IMG/VR virus record: IMGVR_UViG_3300021061_000025
Span: 1-49,644 of that record
Reading direction: 5' to 3' (one strand)
DNA: 49,644 bases
DNA from: a virus
Position 1 is the first letter of the stretch. The number at the start of each line of letters is the position of its first letter. Below, piece after piece: positions 1-23,496 of the stretch. The translations under genes were made by a program, and so were the position numbers. The notes under the pieces are model-generated. The model was given only the letters and a program-made list of their open reading frames with translations. It was not told the origin of the DNA and did no database searches.

Positions 1-164
1 CATCCGAAAGTCAAAGTGATGAGTGGACACCCCTCCACCAGAACTGCGCCATCCGGAGTGGCTGGTAAAGCTGGTCATCGAGCCGCTGAAGCCACGCAAC
101 CGCCTGCGTACGGCGAGGTGGGTCCTGACGCTGTTTCTCTCTGCCGCGGTCGCCGGGATGTTCC
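1..164. repeat. Left copy of 164-bp contig-end direct repeat
   Basis: The first 164 bases are repeated at 49481-49644 with one difference (A at 37, G at 49517). The copy starts in the last codons of the gene ending at 49499 and stops inside the membrane-protein gene starting at 23. This is most simply the overlap of a circular assembly, giving a unique length of 49480 bp. A true short terminal repeat is the alternative, but the break inside a gene argues against it. Confidence 0.95.
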
Positions 165-259
165 GAGAAGTAACGCACATGATTGCGATGCGCCTGGAGT
201 GGGAACCGCCGCCCCCGAGGTCCGGGGAGCGGATGCCGGGGGTCGACCCGGTGAAGTGA
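23..259 (+). CDS. Small single-pass membrane protein, lysis-region
   Basis: A 78-residue protein starting with GTG just after the stop of the preceding gene (reading across the circular junction). Residues about 30-48 form one hydrophobic segment (WVLTLFLSAAVAGMF) behind a basic stretch, and the C-terminus is proline-rich, so it probably sits in the inner membrane with a short soluble tail. It opens the small-gene lysis cluster. The only base differing between the two contig-end copies is a third-codon change (CCA/CCG, both Pro) in this frame, which supports the reading frame. No recognised family; a spanin or holin-accessory role is only positional inference. Confidence 0.6.
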   Translation: MDTPPPELRHPEWLVKLVIEPLKPRNRLRTARWVLTLFLSAAVAGMFREVTHMIAMRLEWEPPPPRSGERMPGVDPVK

Positions 260-272
260 GTGGAGATGTCGA

Positions 273-503
273 ATGAGGAATATCCCAGCCGAGGAACGGG
301 CGACTGGCGCGACCTCGACAAGGCTGAGGTGCACACCCTCAGAGTCGTCTTCCGAGCGCTTGAAGCTGCTGGAACGGCTGGCCTCAGGAGCGTTGTCGCT
401 CTTGAGCAAGCTACAGGAGATCAACGCCGCGCACTTACCAGAGAAATCCGAGAACAACTCAAATACGTCTGTGACGTCGGACTTAGCTGCGTCGACGCCC
501 TGA
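273..503 (+). CDS. Small hypothetical protein in lysis cluster
   Basis: A 76-residue protein whose ATG follows a GGAG motif (262-265) at 7-base spacing. Its third codon positions are GC-rich, like those of neighbouring genes. Residues about 25-50 form a likely amphipathic helix (leucine/lysine pattern), and the tail is Ser/Thr/Asn-rich. Another frame is open across the same stretch (266-517) and ends in ATGA at the next start, but its third positions are much less GC-biased and its start has no spaced ribosome site, so I prefer this frame. Function unknown. Confidence 0.5.
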   Translation: MRNIPAEERATGATSTRLRCTPSESSSERLKLLERLASGALSLLSKLQEINAAHLPEKSENNSNTSVTSDLAASTP

Positions 504-513
504 AAGGATGCGA

Positions 514-765
514 ATGAAAATCAAGAATGCGAAGAACAAGGTACTGGCCGCCGTCGCCTCCACCGTTGCCGGCGCCGGGGCGGTTGTTGGCCTGGCCGCG
601 ACGGGCGTAGGCCTTCCAGCCGCCATCGTGACCGCGGCGAAGTGGATTGTCACCTGGGGGACGGTCTTCGGGGTCGTGGCCGCCAAAGCCCTCCCCGGGA
701 ACGGGAAGAACGCCCCCAAGAAAGACGCCCGCGGCCAAATCGCCGACGCCGAAGACCCCCGATGA
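514..765 (+). CDS. Putative holin (two membrane segments)
   Basis: An 83-residue protein with two hydrophobic segments at about residues 9-32 and 36-58, a very short turn, and a charged Lys/Asp-rich C-terminal tail, the usual plan of class II holins. An ATG six bases upstream (508) is also in frame, but AAAGGA at 503-508 is spaced correctly only for the ATG at 514. The gene overlaps a 26-residue membrane peptide by ATGA, and the endolysin lies 74 bases downstream. The holin role is inferred from topology and position; there is no sequence-level family match. Confidence 0.6.
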   Translation: MKIKNAKNKVLAAVASTVAGAGAVVGLAATGVGLPAAIVTAAKWIVTWGTVFGVVAAKALPGNGKNAPKKDARGQIADAEDPR

Positions 766-842
766 CCACCCGGGACTCGGTGTTCTTCTGCGCTGGGGCC
801 GTCCTGGTTCTTGGAGTCGTCCTCATAGCCCTATTCGTATGA
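762..842 (+). CDS. 26-residue membrane peptide between holin candidate and endolysin
   Basis: A tiny gene with ATGA overlaps at both ends (with the holin candidate at 762-765 and the endolysin at 839-842). After six polar residues almost the whole product is one hydrophobic helix (FFCAGAVLVLGVVLIALF). The double coupling suggests translation in fixed proportion to its neighbours. It may tune the holin or may only carry ribosomes through to the endolysin. No family can be recognised at this size. Confidence 0.55.
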   Translation: MTTRDSVFFCAGAVLVLGVVLIALFV

Positions 843-1357
843 GCGTTAACCTCCCCCCATCGCCGTTCCGCGACCCTCCCCCTCTGCCAATCACCGACGG
901 GGAGGCGTTCCGGCTATCCCTCTTGCGCCCAGATGCAAGGGCCAGGGCCGAGGGAGTCATGCGGCGGATGATGCAGCGGGGGCACGACTGCCCATACGTC
1001 GGGTCAACCAGGCGTACCCAGCGAGAGCAGGAAGACGCCCAGAGACGAGGGACCAGCTCCGCGTCCCAGACCCTGTCCTGGCACCTCCTGGACCGAGCAG
1101 TCGACTTCAGGAAGCGCCTCCCAGGGAACAAGCCAGACCCGACCACCAAGGACGAGAGGTTCTTCCTGGACCTCTGGGAGTGCGCAGAGGAAGAGGGGAT
1201 GCGCTGCCTCGGCTTCGAAAAGGACCACGCCGGTAAGCCCGTGAAGCTCTATATCAACAACGGCAAGCTGTGGGACCCTGGCCACTGCGAATGGCGCCAG
1301 CCCTACGTTTCTCTCGTCCAGGCCACCGCGGCGGAGGCGCCCTACCTCATCGCCTAG
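839..1357 (+). CDS. Endolysin, peptidase M15 (L,D-/D,D-peptidase type)
   Basis: A 172-residue zinc peptidase expected to cut peptide bonds in peptidoglycan. The M15 signature SxHxxxxAxD is seen at residues 80-89 (S80, H82, D89), followed by WDPGHCEW at 145-152, giving D146, H149 and E151. By family knowledge H82, D89 and H149 bind zinc and D146 is the general base. There is no signal peptide, so export should depend on the upstream holin candidate. An in-frame upstream extension to 647 exists, but the ATG at 839 overlaps the previous stop (ATGA) and the M15 fold fits this length. The gene ends in a CTAG shared with the convergent minus-strand gene. Confidence 0.85.
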   Translation: MSVNLPPSPFRDPPPLPITDGEAFRLSLLRPDARARAEGVMRRMMQRGHDCPYVGSTRRTQREQEDAQRRGTSSASQTLSWHLLDRAVDFRKRLPGNKPDPTTKDERFFLDLWECAEEEGMRCLGFEKDHAGKPVKLYINNGKLWDPGHCEWRQPYVSLVQATAAEAPYLIA

Positions 1358-1560
1358 CGGACCCGCTTTCGCTTTAGCGGGTTCTTAGACTGCCTCCAAA
1401 GCAGCCACCCCATAACCCCCGTGGCCAACGTGAAAACGGGGATGCACACGAGAACCACCCACGTCTCGTCTGCCCAGAGGGCAGACCACGCGCTCACGCT
1501 GGCGGCACTGATAGATACCACCCACGCCGCCGCTTCTTTCTTGGTGATAGGTTGATTCAA
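1354..1560 (-). CDS. Small two-pass membrane protein, last gene of HTTM operon
   Basis: A 68-residue protein. The most likely start is a TTG at 1560 overlapping the stop of the HTTM gene (TTGA); a longer upstream reading is open but would lie wholly within that gene. Two hydrophobic segments (residues about 11-29 and 34-56) are followed by a strongly basic C-terminus ending RKRVR, predicting a cytoplasmic tail. Its stop shares the CTAG at 1354-1357 with the endolysin stop. No family recognised. The coupling suggests it works with the HTTM protein. Confidence 0.55.
   Translation of the reverse strand: MNQPITKKEAAAWVVSISAASVSAWSALWADETWVVLVCIPVFTLATGVMGWLLWRQSKNPLKRKRVR
1361..1382. terminator. 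Hairpin at the convergent end of endolysin and HTTM operon
   Basis: A 7-bp perfect stem, ACCCGCT/AGCGGGT, with an 8-base loop (1368-1375) lies immediately after the endolysin stop and inside the last codons of the converging minus gene. On the plus strand it is followed by TTCTTAG, a weak T-run. It is probably the end of the late transcript, possibly acting in both directions. Confidence 0.5.
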
Positions 1561-2795
1561 AGGGTCACCCGACAAACGAGCCGTCCGTCTGAGTAGAAGG
1601 CTACAGCGTACTTCCCATTCCCCCCTAGCTCCCGGTCGAACTTCACAAGCGTCTCTACCCTCCAGCGGTCGATATCCTCCACCCAGCACCTATCCCCCAT
1701 CCCAACCCTTTCTCTCCTCCACATGAGCGCCACGCCGTAGTAGATGCGCTCCGAGGCATGCCAGGCGAGCCTGCCACCTTTCTCGTCGTTCAAGGGGAGC
1801 CGGGTTTCCTTGCCACCCTCGAGCCGATAGAGAACCGCGTAACTCTCGTTCGTCCGAAGGTCCGTCCGGTTGAAGACGTTCACCGGGGATATGCCAAGGT
1901 GCTCAGAGAGGACGGGCAGGGGGTTGACGCTCCCGGCGACAGGGTAGTCCGCTACCGCCAGAAGACACCCAGCGACGAACACGAACACCCCTATCCCTGC
2001 TCGATTCCCCTCGGGGGGCTGGAGCTTGAGCGGGGGACCCCAGAAAACCAGGGCCCACAGGAGGAGCTCGAAGTACGGGAGCCACGCCAGGTGCAACAGG
2101 AGAGCGCTGGAGACGAAGAAGGCGAGCCCATAGCCACAGACCGCCAGTCGGCCGAATCGGCTTCCCCAGAGCGCAAGGGGAAGCATTAGGACCTCCCACG
2201 CAAGCATCGCCAGGGTGGCGACCAGGGACCCCACGGAAGCAGCTCCCGGGAGCCTCGCTACGACCCACCGAAAGGCGTCGGCGTGGGCGCTGAAGTAGGG
2301 GTTGGTGAACACCAGAACCTGAGCCTCTCCCGAGCGCCAGAGCCGGTCCTGCAGGTGAAACTGCGCGGCCGAGAGAGAGGCCACGGCGTAGGCCGTAAGC
2401 GCCATGAGGCGGAGCAGATTCGCCCTGCTCTCCGTCGGAGAGCCCCATACGCGGTAGATAGCCGTGACCCACCGCCAGCGTAGTCGGGCGTCCAGGGACA
2501 GCTCCGTCCCGGCTGGCAAGAAGGCCATGACCAGGCAGAGCATCTGCACGACCATCGTAGACAGGGACCAGGACAAAAGAACTTGGTCCGCGTGCCACTG
2601 GAACAGAAATAGGGAGAGAGCTGCGAGCGGCGCCAGAAACCCCACTGCGAGCATGAGCGCCGCTGACAGCTCGAAGCCTATAGCAAGCCACTGTGCCGGC
2701 GACGTATCCAGGTGCGCCAGGGCCCACAGGTTCGTCCCGTAGCGGTGGAGCAGGACAGCCCCAAAGGCTATCCGGATGAGGTTGATGCGGAACAC
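1557..2795 (-). CDS. HTTM-family (vitamin K-dependent gamma-carboxylase-like) membrane protein
   Basis: A 412-residue integral membrane protein with roughly eight hydrophobic segments in residues 5-283 and a soluble C-terminal domain (about 284-412), probably outside the cytoplasm. Family-like landmarks are the N-terminal NLIRIAFG segment, LPAGTELSLDARLR after the third helix (about 93-106), an HLQDRLWRSGEA stretch (147-158) and WEVLMLPLAL (200-209). This order matches HTTM proteins, the membrane fold shared with gamma-glutamyl carboxylase. I see no obvious counterpart of the carboxylase catalytic lysine. It starts with GTG inside the end of the previous gene. HTTM genes are common in bacteria, but I know of no well-described phage case. 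Cargo, exclusion or modification of an envelope component are all possible. Confidence 0.7.
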   Translation of the reverse strand: MFRINLIRIAFGAVLLHRYGTNLWALAHLDTSPAQWLAIGFELSAALMLAVGFLAPLAALSLFLFQWHADQVLLSWSLSTMVVQMLCLVMAFLPAGTELSLDARLRWRWVTAIYRVWGSPTESRANLLRLMALTAYAVASLSAAQFHLQDRLWRSGEAQVLVFTNPYFSAHADAFRWVVARLPGAASVGSLVATLAMLAWEVLMLPLALWGSRFGRLAVCGYGLAFFVSSALLLHLAWLPYFELLLWALVFWGPPLKLQPPEGNRAGIGVFVFVAGCLLAVADYPVAGSVNPLPVLSEHLGISPVNVFNRTDLRTNESYAVLYRLEGGKETRLPLNDEKGGRLAWHASERIYYGVALMWRRERVGMGDRCWVEDIDRWRVETLVKFDRELGGNGKYAVAFYSDGRLVCRVTL

Positions 2796-2953
2796 GGGGG
2801 GCCGCCGAGTATCGCCTTCTCTTCCCGCAGCAACAACTCCAGCTCGACGCGCTCTCTCTGCTCCCCTGCGATCACCCTCGCCTGTAGCTCTTCCCTGGCT
2901 CTCTTGGAGAGCTTCCCGGTAACGAGGGCGTAGGCCCCTTCGGGGATGGTCAT
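2768..2953 (-). CDS. Small helical protein in HTTM operon
   Basis: A 61-residue protein starting at an ATG that overlaps the nuclease stop by ATGA. Residues about 12-48 are a charged helix rich in Glu, Arg and Leu (KLSKRAREELQARV), likely coiled-coil. The last 12 residues are small and polar, and their codons overlap the start of the HTTM gene by 28 bases. There is no membrane segment and no recognised family. It may be an assembly partner of the nuclease or simply a coupling ORF. Confidence 0.55.
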   Translation of the reverse strand: MTIPEGAYALVTGKLSKRAREELQARVIAGEQRERVELELLLREEKAILGGPPCSASTSSG

Positions 2954-3228
2954 ACCTTCAGCCCGCACGCCCTCAAGGCTTCCTCCTCCGTCTGGACCAC
3001 GAAGTAGGACCATGGGAAGAGCTTCTGTAGCGCCTGCTCGGACTCAGTGAGCTTGCGGCAGTGAGGGGGGCCTGGTTTTTTGATCTCGAGAAACACAACC
3101 TCTCCTCCCAGGGTCTCTGTGACGAGGTCGCACCCAAAGCCGTGGTACCTGGCCACGTCCTTTACTGGGCGCCCAATGCGTTCCAGGGCTCGCTTGATGG
3201 GCAGGTGATTGACATCAGTTCGGTACAC
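2950..3228 (-). CDS. PD-(D/E)XK / VRR-NUC-like nuclease
   Basis: A 92-residue protein with a compact nuclease signature: GFGCDL (D34), then a beta strand ending FLEIKKPG (E48-x-K50), then a Q-containing helix (ESEQALQ, Q65/Q68). This D...ExK...Q order is that of the VRR-NUC branch of PD-(D/E)XK enzymes, which cut structured or double-stranded DNA with divalent metal. The GTG at 3228 is chosen because AAGGAGG lies about 11 bases upstream; an ATG at 3291 would overlap the previous gene by 61 bases. It sits between two small genes of the HTTM operon. It could be an anti-phage effector or a recombination nuclease. Confidence 0.7.
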   Translation of the reverse strand: MYRTDVNHLPIKRALERIGRPVKDVARYHGFGCDLVTETLGGEVVFLEIKKPGPPHCRKLTESEQALQKLFPWSYFVVQTEEEALRACGLKV

Positions 3229-3230
3229 TC

Positions 3231-3497
3231 CTAGTTCGCCTCCTTCTCCAGGCGCTCTTTCGTGCAGCCAGCACACGACGGGTCCGTACATGGCAAGAGC
3301 AGAGAGGCCGCCTCTTCGTTCGAGAGTCCCGCCCTCCTGAGCCTCCGTACGAATTCCACGGTGGCGTGAGCCGTCCCCTCGCCCAGCCCTGACCTAAACC
3401 CCCTCTTTATGGCAACCCGGTAGATGGGGACCCATGCAACTACCGCGAGAACGGACGTCCCGAAGAAGACGACCACCGCAAACGCCTCTGCGCTCAT
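3231..3497 (-). CDS. Membrane-anchored protein with Cys cluster, first gene of HTTM operon
   Basis: An 88-residue protein with an N-terminal membrane segment (residues about 4-28), a basic stop-transfer (AIKRGFRSG) and a soluble helical part ending in CTDPSCAGCTKE (about 70-81), a possible metal or disulfide cluster. The ATG has a good ribosome site, AAGGAA, seven bases upstream. It heads the minus-strand operon, with the nuclease GTG only two bases beyond its stop. Its own promoter must lie in or beyond the divergent XRE gene. No family recognised. Confidence 0.65.
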   Translation of the reverse strand: MSAEAFAVVVFFGTSVLAVVAWVPIYRVAIKRGFRSGLGEGTAHATVEFVRRLRRAGLSNEEAASLLLPCTDPSCAGCTKERLEKEAN

Positions 3498-3515
3498 CGT
3501 GATATTCCTTTCGAG

Positions 3516-3953
3516 GTGGACCGTGACGAACTCCTCCGCCTAGCCGACCAAGCAGCCGCCCTAGCCCTGGAGAACGAGAAAACAGCGGCCATGCTGCGCC
3601 GCCAGGAAGCCCGATTCCGAGAGATGGCGGAGGAGGTCACGCGCGAAAGAGTATTGCACAACCGTTTACAACCGTCTACAGTAAACGGCAACATGCACTC
3701 TGCCCAGCGCTTGGCCATCTCCGCGGGCGTATCCGGGGATGACGCCTTTCTACAGACCATCCGCTCCGCCAAGCCAAAGGGGTACACCCAGAACGCCCTG
3801 GCCACGGCCATAGGCGTTAGCGACGGCCTTCTAAGCCTCTACCGCCATGGTAAGCGAAAAATCCCCCTGAAACGCGCCAAGCGCATCGAGAAACTTACGG
3901 GCTGGCCCGCAGACGCCGAGCACTGGCCCGGCGGCATCGTCGATATCGAGTAG
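3516..3953 (+). CDS. XRE/Cro-type transcriptional regulator with nested leaderless start
   Basis: The full frame gives 145 residues: an N-terminal charged helix (about 1-46, coiled-coil-like), a linker encoded by operator DNA, and an XRE helix-turn-helix at about residues 88-135 (YTQNALATAIGVSDGLLSLYRHGKR). The GTG at 3516 has no clear ribosome site and lies 18 bases from the divergent gene. A consensus-like promoter (3654-3682) and a 27-bp palindrome sit inside the frame, just before an in-frame ATG at 3693 that would give an 86-residue, essentially leaderless HTH protein. I judge the short form the likely repressor or Cro, although third-position GC suggests the 5-prime part is also coding. 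Likely to bind GTTTAC/GTAAAC sites here and at 4001-4024. Confidence 0.7.
   Translation: MDRDELLRLADQAAALALENEKTAAMLRRQEARFREMAEEVTRERVLHNRLQPSTVNGNMHSAQRLAISAGVSGDDAFLQTIRSAKPKGYTQNALATAIGVSDGLLSLYRHGKRKIPLKRAKRIEKLTGWPADAEHWPGGIVDIE
3654..3682 (+). promoter_or_regulatory. Promoter inside regulator gene, leaderless for ATG 3693
   Basis: TTGCAC (3654-3659), 17 bases, TACAGT (3677-3682). Expected initiation is about 3689-3690, three or four bases before the ATG at 3693, so the transcript would be nearly leaderless, as for lambda cI from PRM. The -10 overlaps a palindromic operator, implying autoregulation by the encoded HTH protein. Confidence 0.6.
3662..3688. promoter_or_regulatory. 27-bp operator-like palindrome
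   Basis: CCGTTTAC (3662-3669) and GTAAACGG (3681-3688) form perfect 8-bp arms around an 11-base spacer that itself holds a near-copy half-site, CCGTCTAC. It covers the -10 region of the internal promoter. The GTTTAC/GTAAAC core recurs at 4001-4024 before the early operon, so one regulator probably binds both. Confidence 0.65.
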
Positions 3954-3991
3954 CTGTCCGACGGGCTATGTCGATTTTTGAAGAAAGAGCG

Positions 3992-4024
3992 TTGACACCT
4001 GTAAACACTTACTCTACCGTTTAC
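3992..4024 (+). promoter_or_regulatory. Early promoter with operator half-sites
   Basis: TTGACA (3992-3997), 17 bases, TACCGT (4015-4020). Initiation would fall at about 4027, exactly the A of the ATG of the first early gene. GTAAAC (4001-4006) and GTTTAC (4019-4024) lie in inverted orientation over the spacer and just past the -10, the same half-sites as the palindrome at 3662-3688. Likely the main lytic early promoter, repressed by the XRE protein. Confidence 0.7.
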
Positions 4025-4026
4025 TC

Positions 4027-4272
4027 ATGCTCGAACTTCAAAGCTGGCACGACATGAGCGAGGCCGAGTACGAGTACCGGCTGGAGGACGCCCCGGCCAA
4101 CCCCCGCTGCCACTGGTGCGGCCTGGCTGTCGCGGAGACAGACCCCCAGGTACGGGAGACCCAGCAGGGGGTGTCCTGGGTGTTCCATGCGGAGTGCTTT
4201 GAGAGCCACGCGGACCGGACCCCGACGTCCGTTCGGGAGACCCGGGTGACTCGAATAGTGGAGGTGAAGTGA
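4027..4272 (+). CDS. First early gene, small zinc-binding-like protein
   Basis: An 81-residue protein. CHWC near residue 28 and HAEC near residue 58 give a CxxC...HxxC zinc knuckle arrangement. The N-terminus is acidic and the C-terminus mixed charged. The ATG at 4027 coincides with the predicted transcription start of the early promoter and no ribosome site is possible upstream; an in-frame ATG at 4054 also lacks one. As first gene of the early operon it may be made immediately on infection. Function unknown. Confidence 0.65.
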   Translation: MLELQSWHDMSEAEYEYRLEDAPANPRCHWCGLAVAETDPQVRETQQGVSWVFHAECFESHADRTPTSVRETRVTRIVEVK

Positions 4273-4273
4273 C

Positions 4274-4498
4274 ATGGCCTGCAATGGCTTCGAGGAGACG
4301 GTAGACGGGCGTCTGGTGTTTTGGTTCGTTGGCTACGGCGACGAGTCGACCGGCTGGTGCGTTGACGAGCGGCGCGGAGGAAAGCTGGTTCGCATCCTGT
4401 CAGGCATCCGCTCATACGAGGACGCCGTGAAGAGCGGGCGTGGGTATTACAGCCAGCTTCGCGCCTCCCTCCCTACCCAGAAGGGAGCCCGCCGATGA
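4274..4498 (+). CDS. Small early hypothetical protein
   Basis: A 74-residue protein starting one base after the previous stop. Aromatic and glycine-rich in its first half (LVFWFVGYGDESTGW), then a SYEDAVKSGRGYYSQLR segment that looks like a short helix-turn. It has a single pair of well-separated cysteines. No family recognised. Confidence 0.6.
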   Translation: MACNGFEETVDGRLVFWFVGYGDESTGWCVDERRGGKLVRILSGIRSYEDAVKSGRGYYSQLRASLPTQKGARR

Positions 4499-4656
4499 AC
4501 ACGCTGCTGGACATCGAAGAATTTCCAAGGTGCCCCGTGTGCCGTGGCCGGGAGGCCCATGCCAGCGAGATGATCGACATCTCGAAGGCCATTACGACGC
4601 CGGAACTGCGACCCGCCCACCCGGTGCTCGTTTGCCGTGAGTGCGCCAATGGTTAG
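4495..4656 (+). CDS. 53-residue two-CxxC zinc ribbon
   Basis: The ATG overlaps the previous stop (ATGA) and has AAGGGAG eight bases upstream. CPVC (residues 13-16) and CREC (48-51) form a four-cysteine zinc ribbon with a 31-residue knuckle spacing. The final codons overlap the next gene by eight bases. Likely a small nucleic-acid or protein-binding module; partner unknown. Confidence 0.6.
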   Translation: MNTLLDIEEFPRCPVCRGREAHASEMIDISKAITTPELRPAHPVLVCRECANG

Positions 4657-4951
4657 CGAGTGCGATGTCCACGAGGAGGGCTGCGGGGACTGCCGGCGCT
4701 GCAAGGGCGGCGGAACGAATTGCGACCACGCTCCGAACTACGCCTGTGACTGCCCTCCGTGCCCGGCTTGTAAGGGTGACGGGACGTGCCAGCAATGCGA
4801 GGCGTGGCAGGACGCGCAAGCGCGCTACTGGGGCTGGTACTTCGGCGCGGAGATTCAGCGCGCCGCCCAGCAGGCCCGCGACGAGCGCGAGGACTACGGC
4901 CGTGAGCTGACCGGCAACGAGCGGATGAGCGAAGCCAGGAGGCTCAAGTGA
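4649..4951 (+). CDS. DnaJ-type Cys-rich zinc finger protein
   Basis: A 100-residue protein. Residues about 7-51 hold eleven cysteines in DnaJ central-domain-like pairs (CGDCRRCKGGG, CPACKGDG, CQQC). The rest is a charged helix. DnaJ zinc domains bind unfolded protein, but there is no J-domain here, so a co-chaperone or metal-structured adaptor is only a guess. The ATG at 4649 lies within the tail of the previous gene. Confidence 0.65.
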   Translation: MVSECDVHEEGCGDCRRCKGGGTNCDHAPNYACDCPPCPACKGDGTCQQCEAWQDAQARYWGWYFGAEIQRAAQQARDEREDYGRELTGNERMSEARRLK

Positions 4952-5151
4952 TGACCGGAGACGATCGAACGGACTACCTCGCGGCGGTCACGGATGCGGA
5001 TGTCGGCCCGGCGACGGGAGGCGAGGACGGGTGGCAGTTCATCGTCGACGAGGCAACAGGCGTCGTCTACACGGCGAACCTGTTCGTTGGGCAGGACATC
5101 CCGAGACTGGAGATTGCCGCGCTCATCGACGCCGGGGAGTTGCCGCTATGA
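4951..5151 (+). CDS. Small acidic early protein
   Basis: A 66-residue acidic protein without cysteines (TDYLAAVTDADVG start). ATG at 4951 is preferred over an in-frame GTG at 4948 because AGGAGG sits eight bases upstream. The middle has a short beta-like pattern (GWQFIVDEATGVVYTANLF) and the end is an amphipathic helix. No family recognised. Confidence 0.6.
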   Translation: MTGDDRTDYLAAVTDADVGPATGGEDGWQFIVDEATGVVYTANLFVGQDIPRLEIAALIDAGELPL

Positions 5152-5393
5152 GCGTCGCCATGGTGGACAAGCCAGCTACCTGTCAGGAGTGCGGACAGCC
5201 CTACGAGACAGAGCGAGAGAAGATCAACCGGGAGTACGCGGTAATCCCCTTCCTCCTCGATGCCTTGGTTAAGGGGCTGAGGGTGAGAGAGGGGCAGCAG
5301 TTGACCGAGGGGTTGATTCAGGAGAGGGCGGCGAACCTCTGCCTCGGCTTGCTCGGGGCTTTCGAAATCAAGAGACGGGAGGACGGGAAATGA
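5148..5393 (+). CDS. Small early protein with N-terminal CxxC
   Basis: An 81-residue protein joined by ATGA to its neighbours on both sides (5148-5151 and 5390-5393). CQECGQPYE at residues 12-20 is a single zinc-knuckle half. The rest is helical and ends in a basic KRREDGK. Lying directly upstream of the RecT/Bet gene, it could be an accessory to the annealase, but only position suggests this. Confidence 0.6.
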   Translation: MSVAMVDKPATCQECGQPYETEREKINREYAVIPFLLDALVKGLRVREGQQLTEGLIQERAANLCLGLLGAFEIKRREDGK

Positions 5394-6577
5394 GCACGGC
5401 ACTGGTACTGCACGGGGGGGAATTCACCCGGGACCAAATCGACCTCATCAAGCGGACGATTGCCACGGGGGCAACGGACGACGAGCTGGCGTTGTTCGTC
5501 CAGGCCGCTCAGAGGCTTCGCTTGGACCCCTTCGCCCGCCAGGTCTTCGCCGTCAAGCGGTGGAGCCGGGACGCGGGTAGGGAGGTAATGAGTATCCAGG
5601 TCAGTATTGACGGATTTCGGCTCGTTGCCGAGCGAACCGGGAAGTACGCGGGGCAGCTTGGCCCATTCTGGACCTCCGACGGCAAAGAGTGGACTGAGGT
5701 CTGGCTTAGCTCGACTCCACCCGCCGCCGCGAAGGTTGCCGTCTTGCGACACGACTTCAAAGAGCCCGTTTGGGCGGTGGCAACATGGGAGCAGTACAAG
5801 CAGGAGGGGAAGAACGGCCTCTCTCCCATGTGGAAAAAGATGGGCCCCCTCATGCTGGCGAAGTGCGCCGAGAGCCTTGCCCTTCGCAGGGCATTCCCTA
5901 ACGAGCTCTCCGGCGTTTACAGCCCGGAGGAGATGGCTCAGGCCACCACGGTCGAGGTGGTGTCCGAAAGCCCCGCAAACGACGATTTGGAGCGTCTGAG
6001 GGCCACGGTAAACCAGGAGCCGCCAAGGCGGAACCCGGGGGAGGTAATTGACGGCCCGGCCAAGAAGCTCACCGCCGCCGACATCCCCCACGAAGGCGTC
6101 CCGCTGTCGGATGGGCAGCTCAAGAAGATTCACATCCTTCGAAAGGAGTGCGGGGGGGTGTTCACGGGAGAGGACGACAACCCGGATAGCTTCTGGCGGG
6201 TGAAGGTCCTCCGGGTCTACCGGAACCAGAAAGGGGAGCGGCTCACGTCCTCGACGCAGCTCTCAAAGAACCAGGCATCTCACCTCATCGACAGGTTGGA
6301 GGCCCATAAGGCGAAGGTGACGGCTCGAGCCAACGAGCCCGTGGGCGTGTCGCCAATCACCGGAGAGGACCCGGTGGCGAGGCTGGTGGAGGCCATCGCG
6401 GCAACGGGAGACGAGGAGCAACTCACGGAGGAGATTTGCGACACCCTGCGAATCATGCAGGTGGGCGACATCTCGACGCCGGAGAGGGCCTCGGCAGCGT
6501 TCGCCCTCATAGCTGCCTGGAAGACCCCGGCCTACGAGAGGGAGAAGGCGCGAATCATCGGGAGGCTTGACCCATGA
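5390..6577 (+). CDS. bet: RecT/Bet-family single-strand annealing recombinase
   Basis: A 395-residue protein. Residues about 1-190 match the phage Bet/RecT core: a DELALFVQAAQRLRLDPFARQV segment near 30-52, the SIQVSIDGFRLVAERTG beta-hairpin near 68-85, and MWKKMGPLMLAKCAESLALRRAFP near 145-168. It anneals complementary single strands during phage recombination or replication. The C-terminal 200 residues include a module with the pattern SDGQLKKIHILRKECG...LSKNQASHLIDRL, often fused to phage recombination proteins. No partner exonuclease is visible nearby; the VRR-NUC-like gene at 2950-3228 and the Ref-like gene at 15450 are the only nuclease-like candidates. ATGA start overlap. Confidence 0.9.
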   Translation: MSTALVLHGGEFTRDQIDLIKRTIATGATDDELALFVQAAQRLRLDPFARQVFAVKRWSRDAGREVMSIQVSIDGFRLVAERTGKYAGQLGPFWTSDGKEWTEVWLSSTPPAAAKVAVLRHDFKEPVWAVATWEQYKQEGKNGLSPMWKKMGPLMLAKCAESLALRRAFPNELSGVYSPEEMAQATTVEVVSESPANDDLERLRATVNQEPPRRNPGEVIDGPAKKLTAADIPHEGVPLSDGQLKKIHILRKECGGVFTGEDDNPDSFWRVKVLRVYRNQKGERLTSSTQLSKNQASHLIDRLEAHKAKVTARANEPVGVSPITGEDPVARLVEAIAATGDEEQLTEEICDTLRIMQVGDISTPERASAAFALIAAWKTPAYEREKARIIGRLDP

Positions 6578-6645
6578 GCGAGTTCGAACTGTCCGCCGAG
6601 CGTAGCGAGGCACCCCCAATGCTTTCGGAGCCCTCCCATGGGTAG
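6574..6645 (+). CDS. 23-residue peptide, possible coupling ORF
   Basis: A short frame beginning at an ATGA overlap with the recombinase stop, with GGAGG nine bases upstream. The peptide is acidic and Ser/Glu/Pro-rich. It may be a real micro-protein or only carry ribosomes toward the next gene, whose preferred start lies 22 bases on. Confidence 0.3.
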   Translation: MSEFELSAERSEAPPMLSEPSHG

Positions 6646-6667
6646 CCCCTCAGAAGAAAGGACAGGG

Positions 6668-6982
6668 ATGGACGAGGAAGAGGTGATGGACAGGTCCGAG
6701 ATGACGCCGCAGCAGCTCGCGGAAGCCATCGAGTTCTTCGGGTGCATCGACGTCACCGACGAGGAGAGCGACTGCAAGCCGCCGCTCGGTGACGCCGTGA
6801 TCGAATGGGGCGACGAAGGCCACAGCGGGCCTGGCTGGTACATCTACTGCAACGAGTACCCGGAGGAGGGCGCGACCTTCATCAGCCCGAACGAGGAGCC
6901 GTTCCCGGAGCTGGCCGCCGCGCTGAAGGCCCAGGAGGAGCGCGACGGGGACATGCAGCCAGCCCTGGAGCCCCAGCCATGA
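6668..6982 (+). CDS. Highly acidic small protein (DNA-mimic-like composition)
   Basis: A 104-residue protein with about 28 Asp/Glu against four Lys/Arg. It starts at an ATG with AAGGA five bases upstream; an in-frame ATG at 6638 lacks such a site. Aromatic residues (GWYIYCNEYPEEG) suggest a folded core. Extreme negative charge is typical of DNA-mimic inhibitors such as Ocr-like or anti-restriction proteins, but there is no sequence match, so this is a hypothesis. It overlaps the next gene by ATGA. Confidence 0.6.
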   Translation: MDEEEVMDRSEMTPQQLAEAIEFFGCIDVTDEESDCKPPLGDAVIEWGDEGHSGPGWYIYCNEYPEEGATFISPNEEPFPELAAALKAQEERDGDMQPALEPQP

Positions 6983-7395
6983 CCCCTCCCGTCCCCTCGG
7001 CCGAGGGCATCGCCCGAGCCTTCCACGAAGCCTACGAGCGCCTCGCGCCCAGTTTCGGCTGGACGACCAGCGCTACGACGGCTGTCCCGTGGGAGCGGGT
7101 CCCGGAGGCGAATCGGCGGCTGATGGTTGCCGTCGTCAGGGAAGTTCTCGGCCCATTCCCGGAGGAGACCGCGCGGGCTCACTGCGGCGGCTGCTACGCC
7201 GACCTCGGAGCCATTCAGGGCGCGACGCGGGACGAAATCGAAGCGTGGATGCTGGCGACTGTTGAGGCGCACCGCCCGGTGTGTCCCGGGCCGCCACTTT
7301 GCCCAGCCTGCAAGAGGCCCGTCCGCGAGCACACCCAGGACGAGGCCACGAGGGCCGTCTATTGCCCGCCAGCGGGCACGGAGACCCAACCATGA
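6979..7395 (+). CDS. Early protein with C-terminal zinc knuckles
   Basis: A 138-residue protein. The N-terminal half is helical (IARAFHEAYERLAPSFGW), followed by CGGC near residues 69-72 and CPAC near 110-113 with a final YCPP, suggesting a structural zinc site. The CPACKRPVREHTQDEATRAVYC segment resembles the short knuckles in many phage early proteins. Function unknown. Overlaps by ATGA at both ends. Confidence 0.65.
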   Translation: MTPPVPSAEGIARAFHEAYERLAPSFGWTTSATTAVPWERVPEANRRLMVAVVREVLGPFPEETARAHCGGCYADLGAIQGATRDEIEAWMLATVEAHRPVCPGPPLCPACKRPVREHTQDEATRAVYCPPAGTETQP

Positions 7396-7694
7396 CCAAG
7401 CCAGGCGTCCCCTCTGTGGGGGAGGCGGTGGGGGCGATGGCCGATGCCCTTCGGAAGCTGGCGGCACGTAAGTGCGTCTGGTGCAACGGCAATCGACCTT
7501 GGCCATCCGACGCTCCGCCGGGAGGCTGCGCCCACGACATCGCCCGCGCCGCTCTCCGCTCCTTCGAGGAGGCCCGAAGGGTGCCTCTACGGGAGAACCA
7601 GGCGTTTGCGGATTCGCTGTTCAACAGCGGAGTCGAGGTGTCCAGGCTTCTGCTCGACGCCGTCGAGCGCGCCCTGTTTGGAGATGCCAAATGA
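7392..7694 (+). CDS. Early helical protein with CxxC
   Basis: A 100-residue protein. A helix (GEAVGAMADALRKLAARK) precedes CVWCNGN near residues 28-34 and a CAHD further on, and the rest is helical with an alternating hydrophobic pattern. It shares ATGA overlaps with the gene before and the HNH-AP2 gene after. No recognised family. Confidence 0.6.
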   Translation: MTKPGVPSVGEAVGAMADALRKLAARKCVWCNGNRPWPSDAPPGGCAHDIARAALRSFEEARRVPLRENQAFADSLFNSGVEVSRLLLDAVERALFGDAK

Positions 7695-8338
7695 GTGACC
7701 CGGTTAAGGTCCCGCTGGCGAACGGGAAGGGGTTCGCGCTGGTGTCAGCCGGGCGGGCGGCCGAGGTGCTTAAGCACCGATGGCACCTGCTAACGACCAG
7801 CCAGAAATATCGGTACAGCCAGTACGCCAGGAGAACCGTCAGGCGAGGCGGAAAAGCCAAGACGGTGCTGTTGCATCGCTTCGTGGCTGAGCTGATGGGG
7901 ATGGACCTGTCGGCCCAGGTAGACCATCGGAACGGCGACGGCCTCGACTGCACGGATGGCAATCTGCGCCCAGCCACATGCGCGGACAACGCCCACAACA
8001 TCCGCCAGCGACGGCAGTGGGCGTCGAGATTCCGTGGCGTGCGCTATTACGGCGGATACGGAAGGAGAAAGCGCTGGCAAGCGTGCATAACGGTCAATAG
8101 GCGCCGAATCTGCCTCGGCTACTACGCCACAGAGGAAGAGGCGGCCCGCGCGTACGACGCAGCCGCGATAAAGCACCACGGAGAATTCGCCGGCACGAAC
8201 TTCGGCTCCCCCTCTCCTAGCGAGACGCCTGTTGTAGCCGCAGAGACTTCTATGTCTGCCGACGCGGAAAAACTCACGCGCGAAATACAGGGCACCGTCG
8301 ATTCTGACGCAACGACCCTCAGCGGGGGTGAGAAGTGA
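7691..8338 (+). CDS. HNH endonuclease with AP2 DNA-binding domain (homing type)
   Basis: A 215-residue protein. The HNH part is at about residues 60-105: H62, then VDHRNGDGLDCTDGNLRP with D78-H79 and N91, then N100/N103. The AP2/ERF domain follows at about 113-171 (SRFRGVRYYGGYGRRKRWQ and LGYYATEEEAARAYDAAA). This domain pair defines phage homing endonucleases, which cut a specific site and spread by repair. Unusually, it is joined by 4-base overlaps on both sides (ATGA and GTGA), so if it arrived by homing it has since been fitted into the early operon. The low-complexity C-terminus ends SGGEK. Confidence 0.88.
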   Translation: MSDPVKVPLANGKGFALVSAGRAAEVLKHRWHLLTTSQKYRYSQYARRTVRRGGKAKTVLLHRFVAELMGMDLSAQVDHRNGDGLDCTDGNLRPATCADNAHNIRQRRQWASRFRGVRYYGGYGRRKRWQACITVNRRRICLGYYATEEEAARAYDAAAIKHHGEFAGTNFGSPSPSETPVVAAETSMSADAEKLTREIQGTVDSDATTLSGGEK

Positions 8339-8658
8339 GCCGGCGCCGATGCCTCACCTGTTGGCGCAAGCCTGGCGATACGCCGTTCTGCGGGCCGTGC
8401 GGGAAGAGCTTCGTCCGCGCGACGTCAGGCCGGGTCGTCCTCTTGACGGACGCGGTGAAGTGGGCGGTGCGGCGAGCGTTCGCAATGCAAGAGCGCTGGT
8501 TAGAGCGCCAGGAAGTCAGGGCGAGACCACCGGAGTATGACGGAGACGCCTGTGATGCGTGCAGCGCCGAGGCGGATATCTTCTTCTCCGACGGGCGTCG
8601 CTTCTGTCGCCAGCACGCACCAGCCCGCGAGACGGCCCCAGGGGAGGAGGACAAATGA
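8335..8658 (+). CDS. Double zinc-knuckle early protein
   Basis: A 107-residue protein from a GTGA-overlap start. CLTCWRKPGDTPFCGPCG (residues 6-23) is a compact four-Cys zinc ribbon, and a second CDACSAEADIFFSDGRRFC (about 73-91) matches a short treble-clef-like knuckle. Basic overall in the first half. Probably nucleic-acid binding; no specific role visible. Confidence 0.65.
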   Translation: MSRRRCLTCWRKPGDTPFCGPCGKSFVRATSGRVVLLTDAVKWAVRRAFAMQERWLERQEVRARPPEYDGDACDACSAEADIFFSDGRRFCRQHAPARETAPGEEDK

Positions 8659-9092
8659 AACGCTGGTGGGTCCGCTGGTACGGCAACGCGGACGTGAGTT
8701 TCGAGTATCACGGGCCGTGGTGGCAGAGCGGCGAGGCGTTCGGTGTGGACGCCGAGGGTAACGAGCTGAGCGTTCCGATCTTCGTGGCCGCGGTCGTCGC
8801 GGAAGACCACAGAGGCGCCGAGCATGTCATCGAACGCGCGTACGGCTGGGACCACGCGGGCGGCATTCGGGAATGGAGCTTCGTCGGCGAGCGACCCGAC
8901 GACTGGGAGCCGTTCTGCGACCGCTTCCCCCGTGCCGACTGGATGAGGTGGCTGCCGCCCGTGACAACCGGTCACTGCGAGCCATGCGGCGGGACGGGCA
9001 TCCTCGCTCGCTTCCCGAAAGGCACGTGTGCCGACTGCAAGGGCACCGGTCGCGCCACCCCCTCCGAGCCCAAGAGAGAGGAGGGGCCGTAG
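8655..9092 (+). CDS. Early protein with DnaJ-like CxxCxGTG repeats
   Basis: A 145-residue protein. The first 100 residues are rich in Trp and aromatics (KRWWVRWYGNADVSFEY). Residues about 107-133 carry two DnaJ-type knuckles, CEPCGGTG and CADCKGTG. It is the second gene in the early operon with this knuckle type (see 4649-4951) and may be an adaptor with a metal-stabilised foot. The tail is Lys/Glu-rich. No family assigned. Confidence 0.65.
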   Translation: MKRWWVRWYGNADVSFEYHGPWWQSGEAFGVDAEGNELSVPIFVAAVVAEDHRGAEHVIERAYGWDHAGGIREWSFVGERPDDWEPFCDRFPRADWMRWLPPVTTGHCEPCGGTGILARFPKGTCADCKGTGRATPSEPKREEGP

Positions 9093-9290
9093 ATGGACCC
9101 GATTCCGATGCTGCTGTGGTGCCCGGAATGCGGGACGCGTCACATCGATGAAGGGGAGTTCGCGGCGAAGCCGCACCACACACACGCGTGTCAGGGCTGC
9201 GGGATGGTCTGGCGCCCGGCGCTGGTGCCGACGTGCGGCGTCCAGTTCTTGCCGGGATTCAAGAACACGGAGGTGGCCAATGGGCAGTGA
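9093..9290 (+). CDS. Small zinc-ribbon protein common in proteobacterial phages
   Basis: A 65-residue protein. CPECGTRHID (residues 10-19) and HACQGCGMVWRP (about 31-42) with the HHTH preceding make a clear zinc ribbon, and the end reads GVQFLPGFKN. I recall very similar short proteins in many proteobacterial phages, all of unknown function. ATG directly follows the previous TAG. Confidence 0.75.
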   Translation: MDPIPMLLWCPECGTRHIDEGEFAAKPHHTHACQGCGMVWRPALVPTCGVQFLPGFKNTEVANGQ

Positions 9291-9558
9291 GCCCAATCAC
9301 CCCCGCCAGCTAACGACCGTAGAACTGCTGGACTACGTCGCCCAGGTCGTCGAGGACGCAACAGGGATGTACAGCGGCAGCGCCGCCGCCCTCCGCGCGA
9401 GGGCAGAGAGGCTACGGAGGCTGCTCGCCGAGCACTGGCAACTGGCCAATGAGCGCCAGCAGCGTCACGGCGTGATGCCGGAGCCGTACCTAAACGCGCT
9501 CCTGGCTGTCGACGCCCCCGACAGCACCCCCACTAGAGGGACAGGGGGTGAGGGGTGA
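9280..9558 (+). CDS. Small helical early protein
   Basis: A 92-residue protein overlapping the previous gene by 11 bases. It is mostly helical with an Arg/Leu/Ala pattern (ALRARAERLRRLLAEHWQLANE) that could be coiled-coil, plus a low-complexity Thr/Gly tail. No recognised family. Confidence 0.6.
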   Translation: MGSEPNHPRQLTTVELLDYVAQVVEDATGMYSGSAAALRARAERLRRLLAEHWQLANERQQRHGVMPEPYLNALLAVDAPDSTPTRGTGGEG

Positions 9559-9908
9559 GCCTCGTCGAGTACTTCGAGCAGTGGGAGCGCCAGTGGCGAA
9601 CGGAGGCCAGGGAGGCGGTGACCGAGCGCGCCGTCGGCTACTGGCGCGGGAAGGTAGACGCCATCGAGCAGGTTATCAACGTCCTGAGGCAACCGTCCAC
9701 GCCGACGCTGACCCGCGAGGACGTGGCCGCGTACCTGCTTGATCGAGCGGACCAGTACGACAACAGCAACGGGCGCTGGGTGCCGCTTGCAGACGCCGCT
9801 CACGCGCTGATGGAAGGCGCGGTCGAGGAGGCGCTCGCCCACGGCGAGCTTCAGGAGGAAGACCTGCGGCGACGGGTTCGTGGCTGGGCCAAGAAAGGAC
9901 CCCGATGA
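9555..9908 (+). CDS. Early hypothetical protein
   Basis: A 117-residue protein from a GTGA-overlap start. Amphipathic helices dominate (VEYFEQWERQWRTEAREAV, and DVAAYLLDRADQYDNSNG), ending in a basic RRRVRGWAKKGPR. No cysteines, unlike many neighbours. Family unknown. Confidence 0.6.
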   Translation: MSLVEYFEQWERQWRTEAREAVTERAVGYWRGKVDAIEQVINVLRQPSTPTLTREDVAAYLLDRADQYDNSNGRWVPLADAAHALMEGAVEEALAHGELQEEDLRRRVRGWAKKGPR

Positions 9909-10723
9909 CACCCCAGGAGCGTAACGAGGTACTGGAGGAGGCAGCGCGCATCGCGGATCACAGCGTCGAGATGGCGCACCCGGCGAGCCAGGGCAAGTCG
10001 GTCGGGAAGCGAATCGCACGTCGCATCCGCGCTCTCAAGTCCCAACCCGCCGAACCCGCCCCCGCTCGAATCTGCGCCCGGTGCGGCCATCCCGAGCGAG
10101 AACACATGGGTTCGTGCCTCGCATTTCTCGGGGCCATGGGCAAATGCGGTTGCCACGCCTTTTGTCCCGCCGAAGGACAGCGCGAGCCCGCCCCAGGGGG
10201 AGGGGTGACCGTGAGCTACACCGACGGCAAATGTCCGTGGCCCCGCGAGGAGTGGAAGCTTGAAGAGACGTGGCCAGGGATGCCGTTCGGGAAGACGATT
10301 CTCCGCTACGGACCAGGGTCGTCCGACTTCGTGCAGTTCCCGAACGAGGAGATGGCGCGAGCTTGCGTTGAGCCGCTAGCCCTCGCTACTCAGCTCTCCG
10401 GGGTACGGGCAGAGAACGCGCGTCTGAAGGAAGAGATCGAGACACTCGTCGCGATGGAGGACGCCCACAAACCGACGTGGGACCGAATGGCGAAGTTGGC
10501 CGAAGACGTGATGGAAATCGACGGCGTCATCAGAACTAAGTACGACGCCGCGCTCTCCGAGGCCAGAGCAGAGGTGGAACGCCTCAAAGGGGAGGTGGAG
10601 AGGCTGCGGGTGGCGCTGAGCAAGATCGCGTCCCTTGACACGTTCACCTACGGACAGCCGGTCCAAATCGCCAGGTTCGCACTGGACCCGCCCGCTACCC
10701 ATCCTAAGGGGAGTGGGACGTGA
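9905..10723 (+). CDS. Early protein with zinc knuckle and C-terminal coiled coil
   Basis: A 272-residue protein, the second largest of this operon. The N-terminal helix precedes a Cys/His cluster CARCGHPEREHMGSC...CGCHAFC (about 57-90). The middle includes a short globular part, and residues about 165-250 form a coiled coil with heptads (RAENARLKEEIETL, ARAEVERLKGEVERLR). Such zinc-plus-coil layouts suggest oligomerisation on DNA or RNA. No known family. ATGA start. Confidence 0.65.
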   Translation: MTPQERNEVLEEAARIADHSVEMAHPASQGKSVGKRIARRIRALKSQPAEPAPARICARCGHPEREHMGSCLAFLGAMGKCGCHAFCPAEGQREPAPGGGVTVSYTDGKCPWPREEWKLEETWPGMPFGKTILRYGPGSSDFVQFPNEEMARACVEPLALATQLSGVRAENARLKEEIETLVAMEDAHKPTWDRMAKLAEDVMEIDGVIRTKYDAALSEARAEVERLKGEVERLRVALSKIASLDTFTYGQPVQIARFALDPPATHPKGSGT

Positions 10724-11613: not shown

Positions 11614-12681
11614 ATGGGGTTGGCGGACGAGATAGCGGCGAAGGTACTGCTCGGGCTGGGCGCAACGCAGACGCCCGCTGGCAAAAAGCAGCCATCAATT
11701 TCGGTGGGCCAGCTGTACATGAAGTATCGCGGCTCGAAGCCTCGTGGGTTGGCCTGGCGAATTGAGCGACAGAACCTCCGGTACTTCATCCTCCGCTACT
11801 GGCGGCGCCCCTGTGACTCGCTGACCCAGGTGGACTGGGACCGGCACAGAGAGCTCCGGCGGGGTGAGAAGACGCGCCAGGGAAGGCCCCCGGCTGAGTC
11901 CACGATGAACGTGGACTTGACCCGTACGAAGCAAATGTTTTGGTACGGGGTGAACGCGGGGCTGATCGAAAAGCACCCCTTCCCGAAAGCCAAATTCGTG
12001 AAGGCCAAGAAGCGGAGGGGGACGGCGCCCAATGCTGCGCAGGTGAACGAAATCCTCGCCCACGTCGGATGCCTCCGGTACCACTACCAACAGATAACCG
12101 TCCGCGCTCTGGTGTGCGTGATGGCGGACACTGGGGCTCGCATATCCGAGGCCATGGGCCTGCGCTGGGACAGGATCACGCTACGCTGGACTACGACCGT
12201 CCTGGGCAAGGGGGACAAAACCAGACCCATCGCCTTCACGTCTCGAGCGCGCGAGGCGCTGTCCGCCATTCCCCGTCACCCCTCTAGTCCGTACGTGTTC
12301 ACCAACTACACAAGTGGGCAGCGATGGAAAACGGGAACTGTCCGCGGGTGGTTCTACCGGGTCGTGGACGAGTGCGGCTTGAACGACATCTGCATCGACG
12401 GGGACGCGCGGATTGTCCCTCACCACCTTCGCCACTCCTTCGCCACTGAAGCGGACCGGCGAGGAGCAACCCTCACTCAGATTCAACACGCCCTTGGGCA
12501 TGCCTCCGCAAAAACCACCGAGCTCTATCTCCACAAGGACAAAGAAAATAACGCCGTGGAGATTTCCAGGATTATGGAGGGCGGACGCAGGCTTATGAGA
12601 CGCGGCCCCAGGAAGTCAAGTCACGAACCAGAAAAAAATCTGGACACGTCTCAAGGCAGTAGGGCAAAGTACATTTCGTGA
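11614..12681 (+). CDS. int: Tyrosine recombinase, phage integrase
   Basis: A 355-residue tyrosine site-specific recombinase. Catalytic residues in order are R176 (ADTGARISEA), K202 (GKGDKTRP), H270 and R273 (PHHLRHSFAT), H296 (ALGHASAK) and nucleophile Y305 (TELYLH). The N-terminal 130 residues are the SAM-like core-binding and arm parts. A Lys/Arg-rich tail follows the catalytic domain. It should integrate the phage genome between attP and attB and, with an accessory factor, excise it. No good ribosome site precedes the ATG. It sits downstream of the early operon with candidate arm sites upstream. Confidence 0.92.
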   Translation: MGLADEIAAKVLLGLGATQTPAGKKQPSISVGQLYMKYRGSKPRGLAWRIERQNLRYFILRYWRRPCDSLTQVDWDRHRELRRGEKTRQGRPPAESTMNVDLTRTKQMFWYGVNAGLIEKHPFPKAKFVKAKKRRGTAPNAAQVNEILAHVGCLRYHYQQITVRALVCVMADTGARISEAMGLRWDRITLRWTTTVLGKGDKTRPIAFTSRAREALSAIPRHPSSPYVFTNYTSGQRWKTGTVRGWFYRVVDECGLNDICIDGDARIVPHHLRHSFATEADRRGATLTQIQHALGHASAKTTELYLHKDKENNAVEISRIMEGGRRLMRRGPRKSSHEPEKNLDTSQGSRAKYIS

Positions 12682-21886: not shown

Positions 21887-21965
21887 ACCCAGATACTCAG
21901 CACATCACATGCCAAGGTGCAATGCACGCTAACTATGTGTAATCACCACGCCAGGTATTCGGCTG

Positions 21966-21981
21966 TCTCAGGTATCTGAGA
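21966..21981. promoter_or_regulatory. Palindromic operator, copy 1
   Basis: TCTCAG-GTAT-CTGAGA is a perfect 6-bp-arm palindrome in the 183-base gap between divergent genes (21886 minus, 22070 plus). A second near-copy lies at 22025-22040. Both fit a dimeric HTH regulator, probably the product of the adjacent gene at 22070 or another small regulator. Confidence 0.55.
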
Positions 21982-22024
21982 GACAGCTCGACCTAAGTCC
22001 GCTGAAACCAAGGCTGTCGCTCAA

Positions 22025-22040
22025 TCTCAGAATCCTGAGG
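22025..22040. promoter_or_regulatory. Palindromic operator, copy 2
   Basis: TCTCAG-AATC-CTGAGG, the same half-sites as at 21966-21981 with one mismatch in the last base. A third, degraded half-site CTTGAG lies at 22044-22049. The sites end 21-30 bases before the ATG of the HTH gene, where they could block a promoter whose -10 is GATAGT (22055-22060). Confidence 0.5.
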
Positions 22041-22069
22041 CAACTTGAGAATCTGATAGTCTAAGGTCC

Positions 22070-22839: not shown

Positions 22840-22988
22840 TTAGTTCCCGGTCTGCCTAGGTAGCGGGCTAGGTTCCGCTTGTGCTCCAGGGCTTTGATTT
22901 CCTCGGGGGTGAGCCTTCTGAGGGGGCCGGGCTTGCGTATCTCGTAGGCGTGCTTGGAACGCTCTGAGGCGGGGACTCCCGGCTTCAC
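22827..22988 (-). CDS. 53-residue basic protein, third gene of minus regulatory operon
   Basis: GTG start overlapping the previous stop (GTGA). Basic helix-rich protein (LRRLTPEEIKALEHKRNLARYLGRPG), without cysteines. It may bind DNA or act with the Fis-type regulator encoded first in the operon. Short enough to be missed by standard gene finding. Confidence 0.5.
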   Translation of the reverse strand: MKPGVPASERSKHAYEIRKPGPLRRLTPEEIKALEHKRNLARYLGRPGTKQDR

Positions 22989-23248
22989 CCTCTCAGTCCC
23001 TTCAGCTCTGAGTCGATGTCCCGGAGGTCAGACCCGCAGTCCTGAACGCCGCGCCAGTCCTCGTCCTGGAACTTCAGGAGTAGGTCCGCCTTCGTGCCTA
23101 CCCGCTTCTTGAGGAGGAACTCGATGCGGGCTTGTCTGGCCTCGGCGGGGCTCTTTTCGCCGGTCGGCCCCCAAGCGCCGTTTAGCCGCCTCCGGATGCC
23201 GGCCGGTGGTTCGTAGTTCTCTAGCAACTCCATCAGGCTTTTCGGCAT
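22985..23248 (-). CDS. 87-residue hypothetical protein, second gene of minus regulatory operon
   Basis: ATG overlaps the Fis-type stop as TGATG. Helical ends (SLMELLENYEPPAGIRRRL; DLRDIDSELKGLRG) around a basic centre (ARQARIEFLLKKRVGTKADLL). No known family. Its place between two small regulatory-looking genes suggests a control or partner role. Confidence 0.55.
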   Translation of the reverse strand: MPKSLMELLENYEPPAGIRRRLNGAWGPTGEKSPAEARQARIEFLLKKRVGTKADLLLKFQDEDWRGVQDCGSDLRDIDSELKGLRG

Positions 23249-23421
23249 CACCGCCCCCTCCATCGCTTCCGCTTCCTGATGAGCGTCGTGGGACTAATCC
23301 CCAGCTCCATGGCTATCCGGTACTGAGGGACCTCCGGGTGGGCGGCTAGCGTCGCCTCGATGTGCTCCCGCTCCACCTCCCGAAGCGGCTTGATGGGCGG
23401 CTGCGTCTGGGTGGCTGTCAT
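23248..23421 (-). CDS. Fis-type helix-turn-helix regulator (57 aa)
   Basis: REVEREHIEATLAAHPEV followed by RIAMELGISPTTLIRKRKRW reproduces the HTH_8 (Fis/NtrC C-terminal) pattern almost end to end, with no other domain. A protein this short should dimerise and bend or mark DNA. It is the first gene of a three-gene minus operon, divergent from the late operon. A perfect-arm palindrome lies at 23469-23495, between the two, and is its natural binding candidate. It may act as late-gene activator or repressor. Confidence 0.75.
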   Translation of the reverse strand: MTATQTQPPIKPLREVEREHIEATLAAHPEVPQYRIAMELGISPTTLIRKRKRWRGR

Positions 23422-23468
23422 TTCGCCCTTCAGCTTTGCATACGCTAAATGACATTGCAATACGATAC

Positions 23469-23495
23469 ACGTATGGTACCGTCGTGACCATACGT
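23469..23495. promoter_or_regulatory. 27-bp palindrome before the late operon
   Basis: ACGTATGGT (23469-23477) and ACCATACGT (23487-23495) are perfect 9-bp arms around a 9-base spacer, ending one base before the ATG at 23497. A TTGCAA (23455-23460) and a TACCGT (23477-23482, 16-base spacing) could form a plus-strand promoter covered by it. It is likely an operator between the divergent regulatory and late operons. Confidence 0.6.
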
Positions 23496-23496
23496 C

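Follow-up and report, generated by a model that had tools for sequence, protein, structure and literature searches.

A predicted leaderless gene at the head of a RecT operon and a candidate XRE-controlled promoter pair in a GC-rich phage

Layout of the control region

The window, by which we mean the whole stretch of DNA analysed here, is an entire IMG/VR virus record of 49,644 bases with a GC content of 62.8%. The phage is most likely temperate, because the window encodes a RecT annealing protein (5390-6577), a tyrosine integrase (11614-12681) and an excisionase-like HTH_17 protein (start 22070). No tRNA genes were found in the window, megablast of its first 20 kb revealed no near relative among sequenced phages, and a RecT search of genome contigs returned only two loci. 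The control region described here sits between leftward genes, running downward from ATG 3497, and a rightward early operon that includes the RecT gene. Its features, and two candidate sites further along, are as follows.

3231-3497, minus strand: divergent gene, 88 aa, with the Shine-Dalgarno (SD) sequence AAAGGA
3516-3953, plus strand: longer in-frame ORF, 145 aa, coiled-coil-like N-terminus followed by the HTH domain; start uncertain, no SD
3654-3682, plus strand: promoter 1 candidate, TTGCAC (3654-3659), 17 nt, TACAGT (3677-3682), then 10 nt and ATG 3693
3662-3688, no strand assigned: operator-like cluster at promoter 1, CCGTTTAC (3662-3669), CCGTCTAC (3672-3679) and, in reverse, GTAAACGG (3681-3688)
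3693-3953, plus strand: XRE/Cro-like HTH regulator (HTH_3), short form, 86 aa
3959-3980, plus strand: possible terminator, a short stem and ATTTTTG, between the HTH gene and promoter 2
3992-4020, plus strand: promoter 2, TTGACA (3992-3997), 17-nt spacer, TACCGT (4015-4020), then 6 nt and ATG 4027
4001-4024, no strand assigned: operator-like pair at promoter 2, GTAAAC (4001-4006) and CCGTTTAC (4017-4024)
4027-4272, plus strand: predicted leaderless gene for an 81-aa CxxC...HxxC protein, heading the RecT operon, 6 nt past the -10, no SD
21887-21922, minus strand: weak third case, TTGCAC-18-GAGTAT-6-ATG 21886
22050-22069, plus strand: possible extended -10 TGATAGTCT, 7 nt before ATG 22070 of the HTH_17 gene, divergent from 21886

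The 3693 product matches PF01381 (HTH_3) with 28.1 bits against a cut-off of 23, as well as PHROG transcription-regulation families with E-values down to 3e-6. The 4027 product has no Pfam or PHROG match, and IMG/VR searches with the HTH protein alone and with the 4027 protein alone returned no relatives. HTH matches in staphylococcal phages and in one Hoyosella plasmid were set aside as weak and looking like generic HTH. Within the window, 7691-8338 (plus strand) encodes a protein that, judged by eye only, resembles an HNH endonuclease whose C-terminal region is of the AP2 type.

Promoters and Shine-Dalgarno sites in the window

Promoter 2 outranks all other promoters in the window and is more than a chance match, being the sole pair on either strand in which a complete TTGACA (6/6) is followed at 16-18 nt by NANNNT. 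Its TACCGT agrees with the -10 consensus at three of six positions (first T, A and last T), the promoter rules applied here being those of sigma-70 in well-studied bacteria. The built-in promoter scan of positions 1-10000 reported nothing, TACCGT falling under its 4/6 threshold. Promoter 1 matches the consensus at 3/6 and 4/6 positions and, since 113 pairs in the window are at least as good, is not above chance by itself; it gains weight only from the operator-like repeats shared with promoter 2 and from a homologous locus, L041.

The letters and spacings of both promoters proved to be exactly as in the original prediction, which had also proposed that both start points coincide with ATG codons. 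The usual distance from the -10 to the +1 is 6-7 nt. With its 6-nt spacing, promoter 2 is accordingly predicted to start transcription at the A of ATG 4027, as proposed, whereas the predicted +1 of promoter 1 would lie about 3-4 nt upstream of ATG 3693 and leave a leader of 3-4 nt.

None of the candidate starts has an SD: the best duplexes with the 16S tail are -1.7 kcal/mol at 3693, +1.2 at 4027 and -2.2 at 21886, all weaker than the threshold of -4.5 kcal/mol or better that 47 of the 73 scored gene starts in the window reach. Several genes of the RecT operon carry a strong SD, such as GGAGGTG before 4274. The further statement that no ribosome-binding site can exist on these transcripts holds only if transcription starts at the ATGs, and for 3693 it is weakened because this ATG is embedded in a longer, coding-like frame, which could be translated from a transcript begun further upstream.

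Bacterial leaderless genes are marked by TANNNT about 12 bp ahead of the start codon and account for an average of 13-39% of the genes in Acidobacteria, delta-Proteobacteria, Actinobacteria and Deinococcus-Thermus (PMC3160421), and in Deinococcus TANNNT is found 6-7 bp upstream of ORFs (PMC12340547). Promoter 2 resembles such TA-led genes in that the first T of its TANNNT lies 12 bp upstream of the start (4015 to 4027) and no SD is present, but TA-led genes are host chromosomal genes, while promoter 2 belongs to a phage operon and has a consensus -35. At 3693 the first T lies at 16 bp rather than about 12. TANNNT before gene starts is rare in this GC-rich genome, occurring within 40 nt upstream of only 6 of about 72 starts (3693, 4027, 22070, 23497, 11614 and 49269), the first five of which head possible transcription units.

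Related loci, operator-like repeats and spacing enrichment

The architecture of promoter 2 recurs in related loci. In L002/L004, whose RecT is 54% identical to that of the window, the first early gene is preceded by TTGACG-18-TACCGT-6-ATG, and its product and that of 4027 have a CxxCG...HxxC segment in common, a weak similarity (E=0.002, from a single pairwise comparison). L041, which was located through RecT and was the only contig to come back from an HTH alignment search, encodes an HTH homologue that starts at 3648, is 56-57% identical and aligns from Met1 of the 3693 form; TTGCAC lies 36 nt upstream of its ATG, which is homologous to 3693. The next gene in L041 starts at 4149, about 245 nt past the end of the HTH gene, behind TTGCGC-17-TAGTGT-6-ATG. 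Its protein has no similarity to the 4027 product, so that the promoter architecture is retained while the gene behind it changes.

Both promoters of the window are overlaid by CCGTTTAC-type octamers. The cluster at promoter 1 lies between the -35 and ATG 3693, and three such octamers within 34 bp were found in 0 of 60 shuffled windows; at promoter 2, CCGTTTAC at 4017-4024 spans from the -10 to just before ATG 4027. The corresponding places in L041 read GTTCAC, AGTGTTAACACT and GTGAAC before the HTH gene, and TGTGAACA and AGTGTTCACTC, the latter abutting the ATG, before 4149. The letters of the sites and the HTH protein have thus diverged together between the two phages, as expected if the HTH protein binds the sites. 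We consider it likely that these repeats constitute a putative autoregulatory operator at both promoters, and we infer that control is by repression, through covering of the -10/+1 region. A 17-bp near-palindrome at promoter 1 was dropped as standalone evidence, because such a palindrome is expected by chance in 50 kb and only the repeat cluster counts.

The original prediction had named conservation of spacing in relatives as a check. The 6-nt distance is kept in L002/L004 and L041, and it is enriched more widely. We counted ATGs opening an ORF of at least 50 aa in 51 deduplicated RecT-related loci (GC at least 0.55, 574 kb), taking expected counts from spacings of 10-59 nt and binomial p-values. 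Behind a TTG-type -35 and TANNNT, the ATG lies 5-7 nt past the -10 in 15 cases where 2.1 would be expected (p 7e-8), and with TTGAC boxes in 11 where the expectation is 1.3 (p 1e-6). Neither altered-box controls nor 19 loci with GC below 0.55 gave an excess at 5-7 nt. Three of the 15 matches come from L066 and share one repeated stretch, so we do not treat them as independent events, which brings the count nearer 13. This stretch, before the L066 minus-strand starts 2839, 1010 and 303, consists of three copies of TTGACA-17-TAATAT-5-ATGGGCAGCGGACAGCAGCCCGCAA, a promoter-plus-start module with differing downstream sequence.

Across all IMG/VR contigs, TTGACA-17-TACCGT-6-ATG occurs in 83 stretches, against 48 with 12 nt in place of 6, a comparison of one -10 sequence with one control spacing. 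After deduplication, contigs with GC of at least 0.55 gave 33 against 3 (25 against 1 with an ORF of at least 50 aa), and those with GC 0.45-0.55 gave 21 against 18 (16 against 8 with an ORF); the small contrast at medium GC indicates that GC-rich phages show the signal most clearly. Regulators of the HTH_3, YdaS/P22-Cro and ribbon-helix-helix (RHH) types are among the genes that follow such promoters, in about eight RecT loci and some seven of the other contigs. Together, these counts suggest that GC-rich phages would use leaderless starts repeatedly, often for small DNA-binding regulators. In another locus, L053 (837-925), an RHH gene and a divergent gene for a 125-aa protein each have their -10 exactly 6 nt before the ATG, forming a back-to-back pair of apparently leaderless genes.

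Interpretation, alternatives and known systems

Leaderless initiation at 4027 is well supported as a prediction by the promoter consensus, its spacing, the lack of an SD, the like architecture in two related loci and the spacing enrichment in related and unrelated high-GC contigs. Promoter 2 would be a sigma-70-type early operon promoter that initiates transcription at the A of ATG 4027, so that ribosomes would begin on a 5'-terminal AUG, while the downstream genes of the RecT operon would be translated mostly from their own SD sites. The XRE regulator, from 3693 and perhaps in a longer form from about 3516, would bind the CCGTTTAC-type sites in its own promoter region and over the -10/+1 of promoter 2 and control both promoters, much as a phage Cro or repressor does. 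ATG 3693 itself would probably be served by a transcript with almost no leader (0-4 nt), initiated within the longer frame. Taken jointly, a leaderless 4027, a regulator acting on both promoters and a near-leaderless 3693 form a reading that we believe to be probable.

As to the start of the regulator gene, 3693 may begin a short form of the protein, but the frame upstream of it looks coding and 3693 might therefore not be a start; the cell could make the short form only, the long form only or both. It is conceivable, although we think it rather unlikely, that there is a single longer HTH gene beginning at GTG 3516, ATG 3588 or ATG 3624, that promoter 1 consists of operator and coding letters, and that only promoter 2 is leaderless. 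The frame is indeed open to GTG 3516, its codon log-odds of 0.125 per codon (3516-3650) are close to the 0.14 of the HTH part and were reached in 2 of 1000 shuffles, the L041 HTH gene has a like in-frame extension, and the consensus match of promoter 1 is poor. However, neither an SD nor a promoter was seen at or upstream of GTG 3516, and the codon score turns negative across 3660-3689, over the operator-like repeats. In addition, the extension is poorly conserved in L041, where the opposite strand scores higher, strong identity begins at Met 3693, and operator-like palindromes stand at the junction in both phages. A further reading is a nested locus, in which a long coiled-coil-HTH protein and a short HTH protein would coexist, the latter made from a leaderless or near-leaderless transcript of the in-frame promoter, with the operator doubling as a translated linker and the arrangement kept in L041; we offer this only tentatively.

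Two further alternatives concern promoter 2 as well. The -10-like boxes could be chance products of AT-rich operators, with the real transcripts starting elsewhere and carrying ordinary leaders, and it is true that the boxes overlap operator-like repeats, that TACCGT and TACAGT are modest matches and that the window has many pairs matching promoter 1 and 21886 in quality. We nevertheless regard this as improbable, given that the controlled tests show the spacing to be enriched both in related loci and across all high-GC phage contigs, the missing SD for leadered initiation at 4027, and position-exact conservation in L002 and L041 even though the operator letters differ. Equally doubtful is the idea that 4027 is read mainly from transcripts running through the HTH gene, with SD-independent initiation and little added by promoter 2. 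Such initiation exists and the gap between the HTH gene and 4027 is only 73 nt, but this distance is long for stop-start coupling, the gap holds a terminator-like hairpin (such sites being no commoner in the region than in shuffles), and promoter 2 is stronger than any other promoter in the window.

With promoter 2 read as leaderless, 4027 would join a known class of leaderless phage genes, of which lambda cI and phage P2 have been named as cases (PMC5101355). The cI and cro genes of PY54 are leaderless by RACE and resemble the present locus as a regulator region with start points at the AUG and operators nearby, but PY54 is a lambda-related telomere phage in which both leaderless genes are regulators, whereas the clear case here heads a RecT operon (PMC4488713). 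Similarly, PaaR2 of the cryptic prophage CP-933P, leaderless by RACE and protein analysis, is like lambda cI a leaderless regulator beside a divergent unit and operators (PMC8630535); in both systems the leaderless gene is a CI-like repressor. The likeness to lambda cI drawn in the original prediction is thus apt for the mechanism and for the class of gene seen in relatives, but 4027 itself encodes a small CxxC/HxxC protein, apparently not a repressor. For 3516/3693, the closest parallel is VirF21 of Shigella, a short DNA-binding regulator translated from the leaderless mRNA of a gene-internal promoter, its internal start shown by experiment (PMC5101355). The arrangement suspected here is a hypothesis and concerns a phage XRE-type rather than an AraC-like bacterial regulator; if true, the nested locus would parallel VirF30/VirF21 in a phage.

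Although leaderless regulator genes of phages are already known, our searches of the open literature turned up no phage-wide survey of leaderless genes. What is more useful here is how widely the pattern extends among uncultivated GC-rich phages. Gene finders set phage starts largely by SD sequences, and SD-less first genes of key units could be mis-started or missed; a -10-to-ATG spacing test with a shifted-spacing control makes such genes countable in metagenomic viruses. Leaderless mRNAs also differ in their dependence on initiation factors and initiator tRNA (PMC9031893), which may bear on regulator expression in such phages when host translation changes.

Leaderless initiation as a recurring design is better supported across relatives than inside this single phage, where there is one strong case (4027), while 3693 is near-leaderless and possibly internal and the others are weak. 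At 21886 on the minus strand, GAGTAT does lie 6 nt before the ATG, and TTGCAC, previously unmentioned, is found 18 nt further up, but the boxes match at only 3/6 and 3/6 positions and the pair alone is not above chance; the nearest TANNNT, at 39 nt, is beyond any sensible -10 position. ATG 22070, with TGATAGTCT-7-ATG, is perhaps a further weak leaderless case. The divergent region between the two starts (21887-22069) contains several imperfect inverted repeats, for example CTGTCTC...GAGACAG. A unit head lacking an SD at 23449-23497 (plus strand), divergent from the gene at 22985-23263, carries TTGCAA-16-TACCGT with the ATG 14 nt past the -10, and an inverted repeat, ACGTATGG-N11-CCATACGT (23469-23495), ends one base before ATG 23497.
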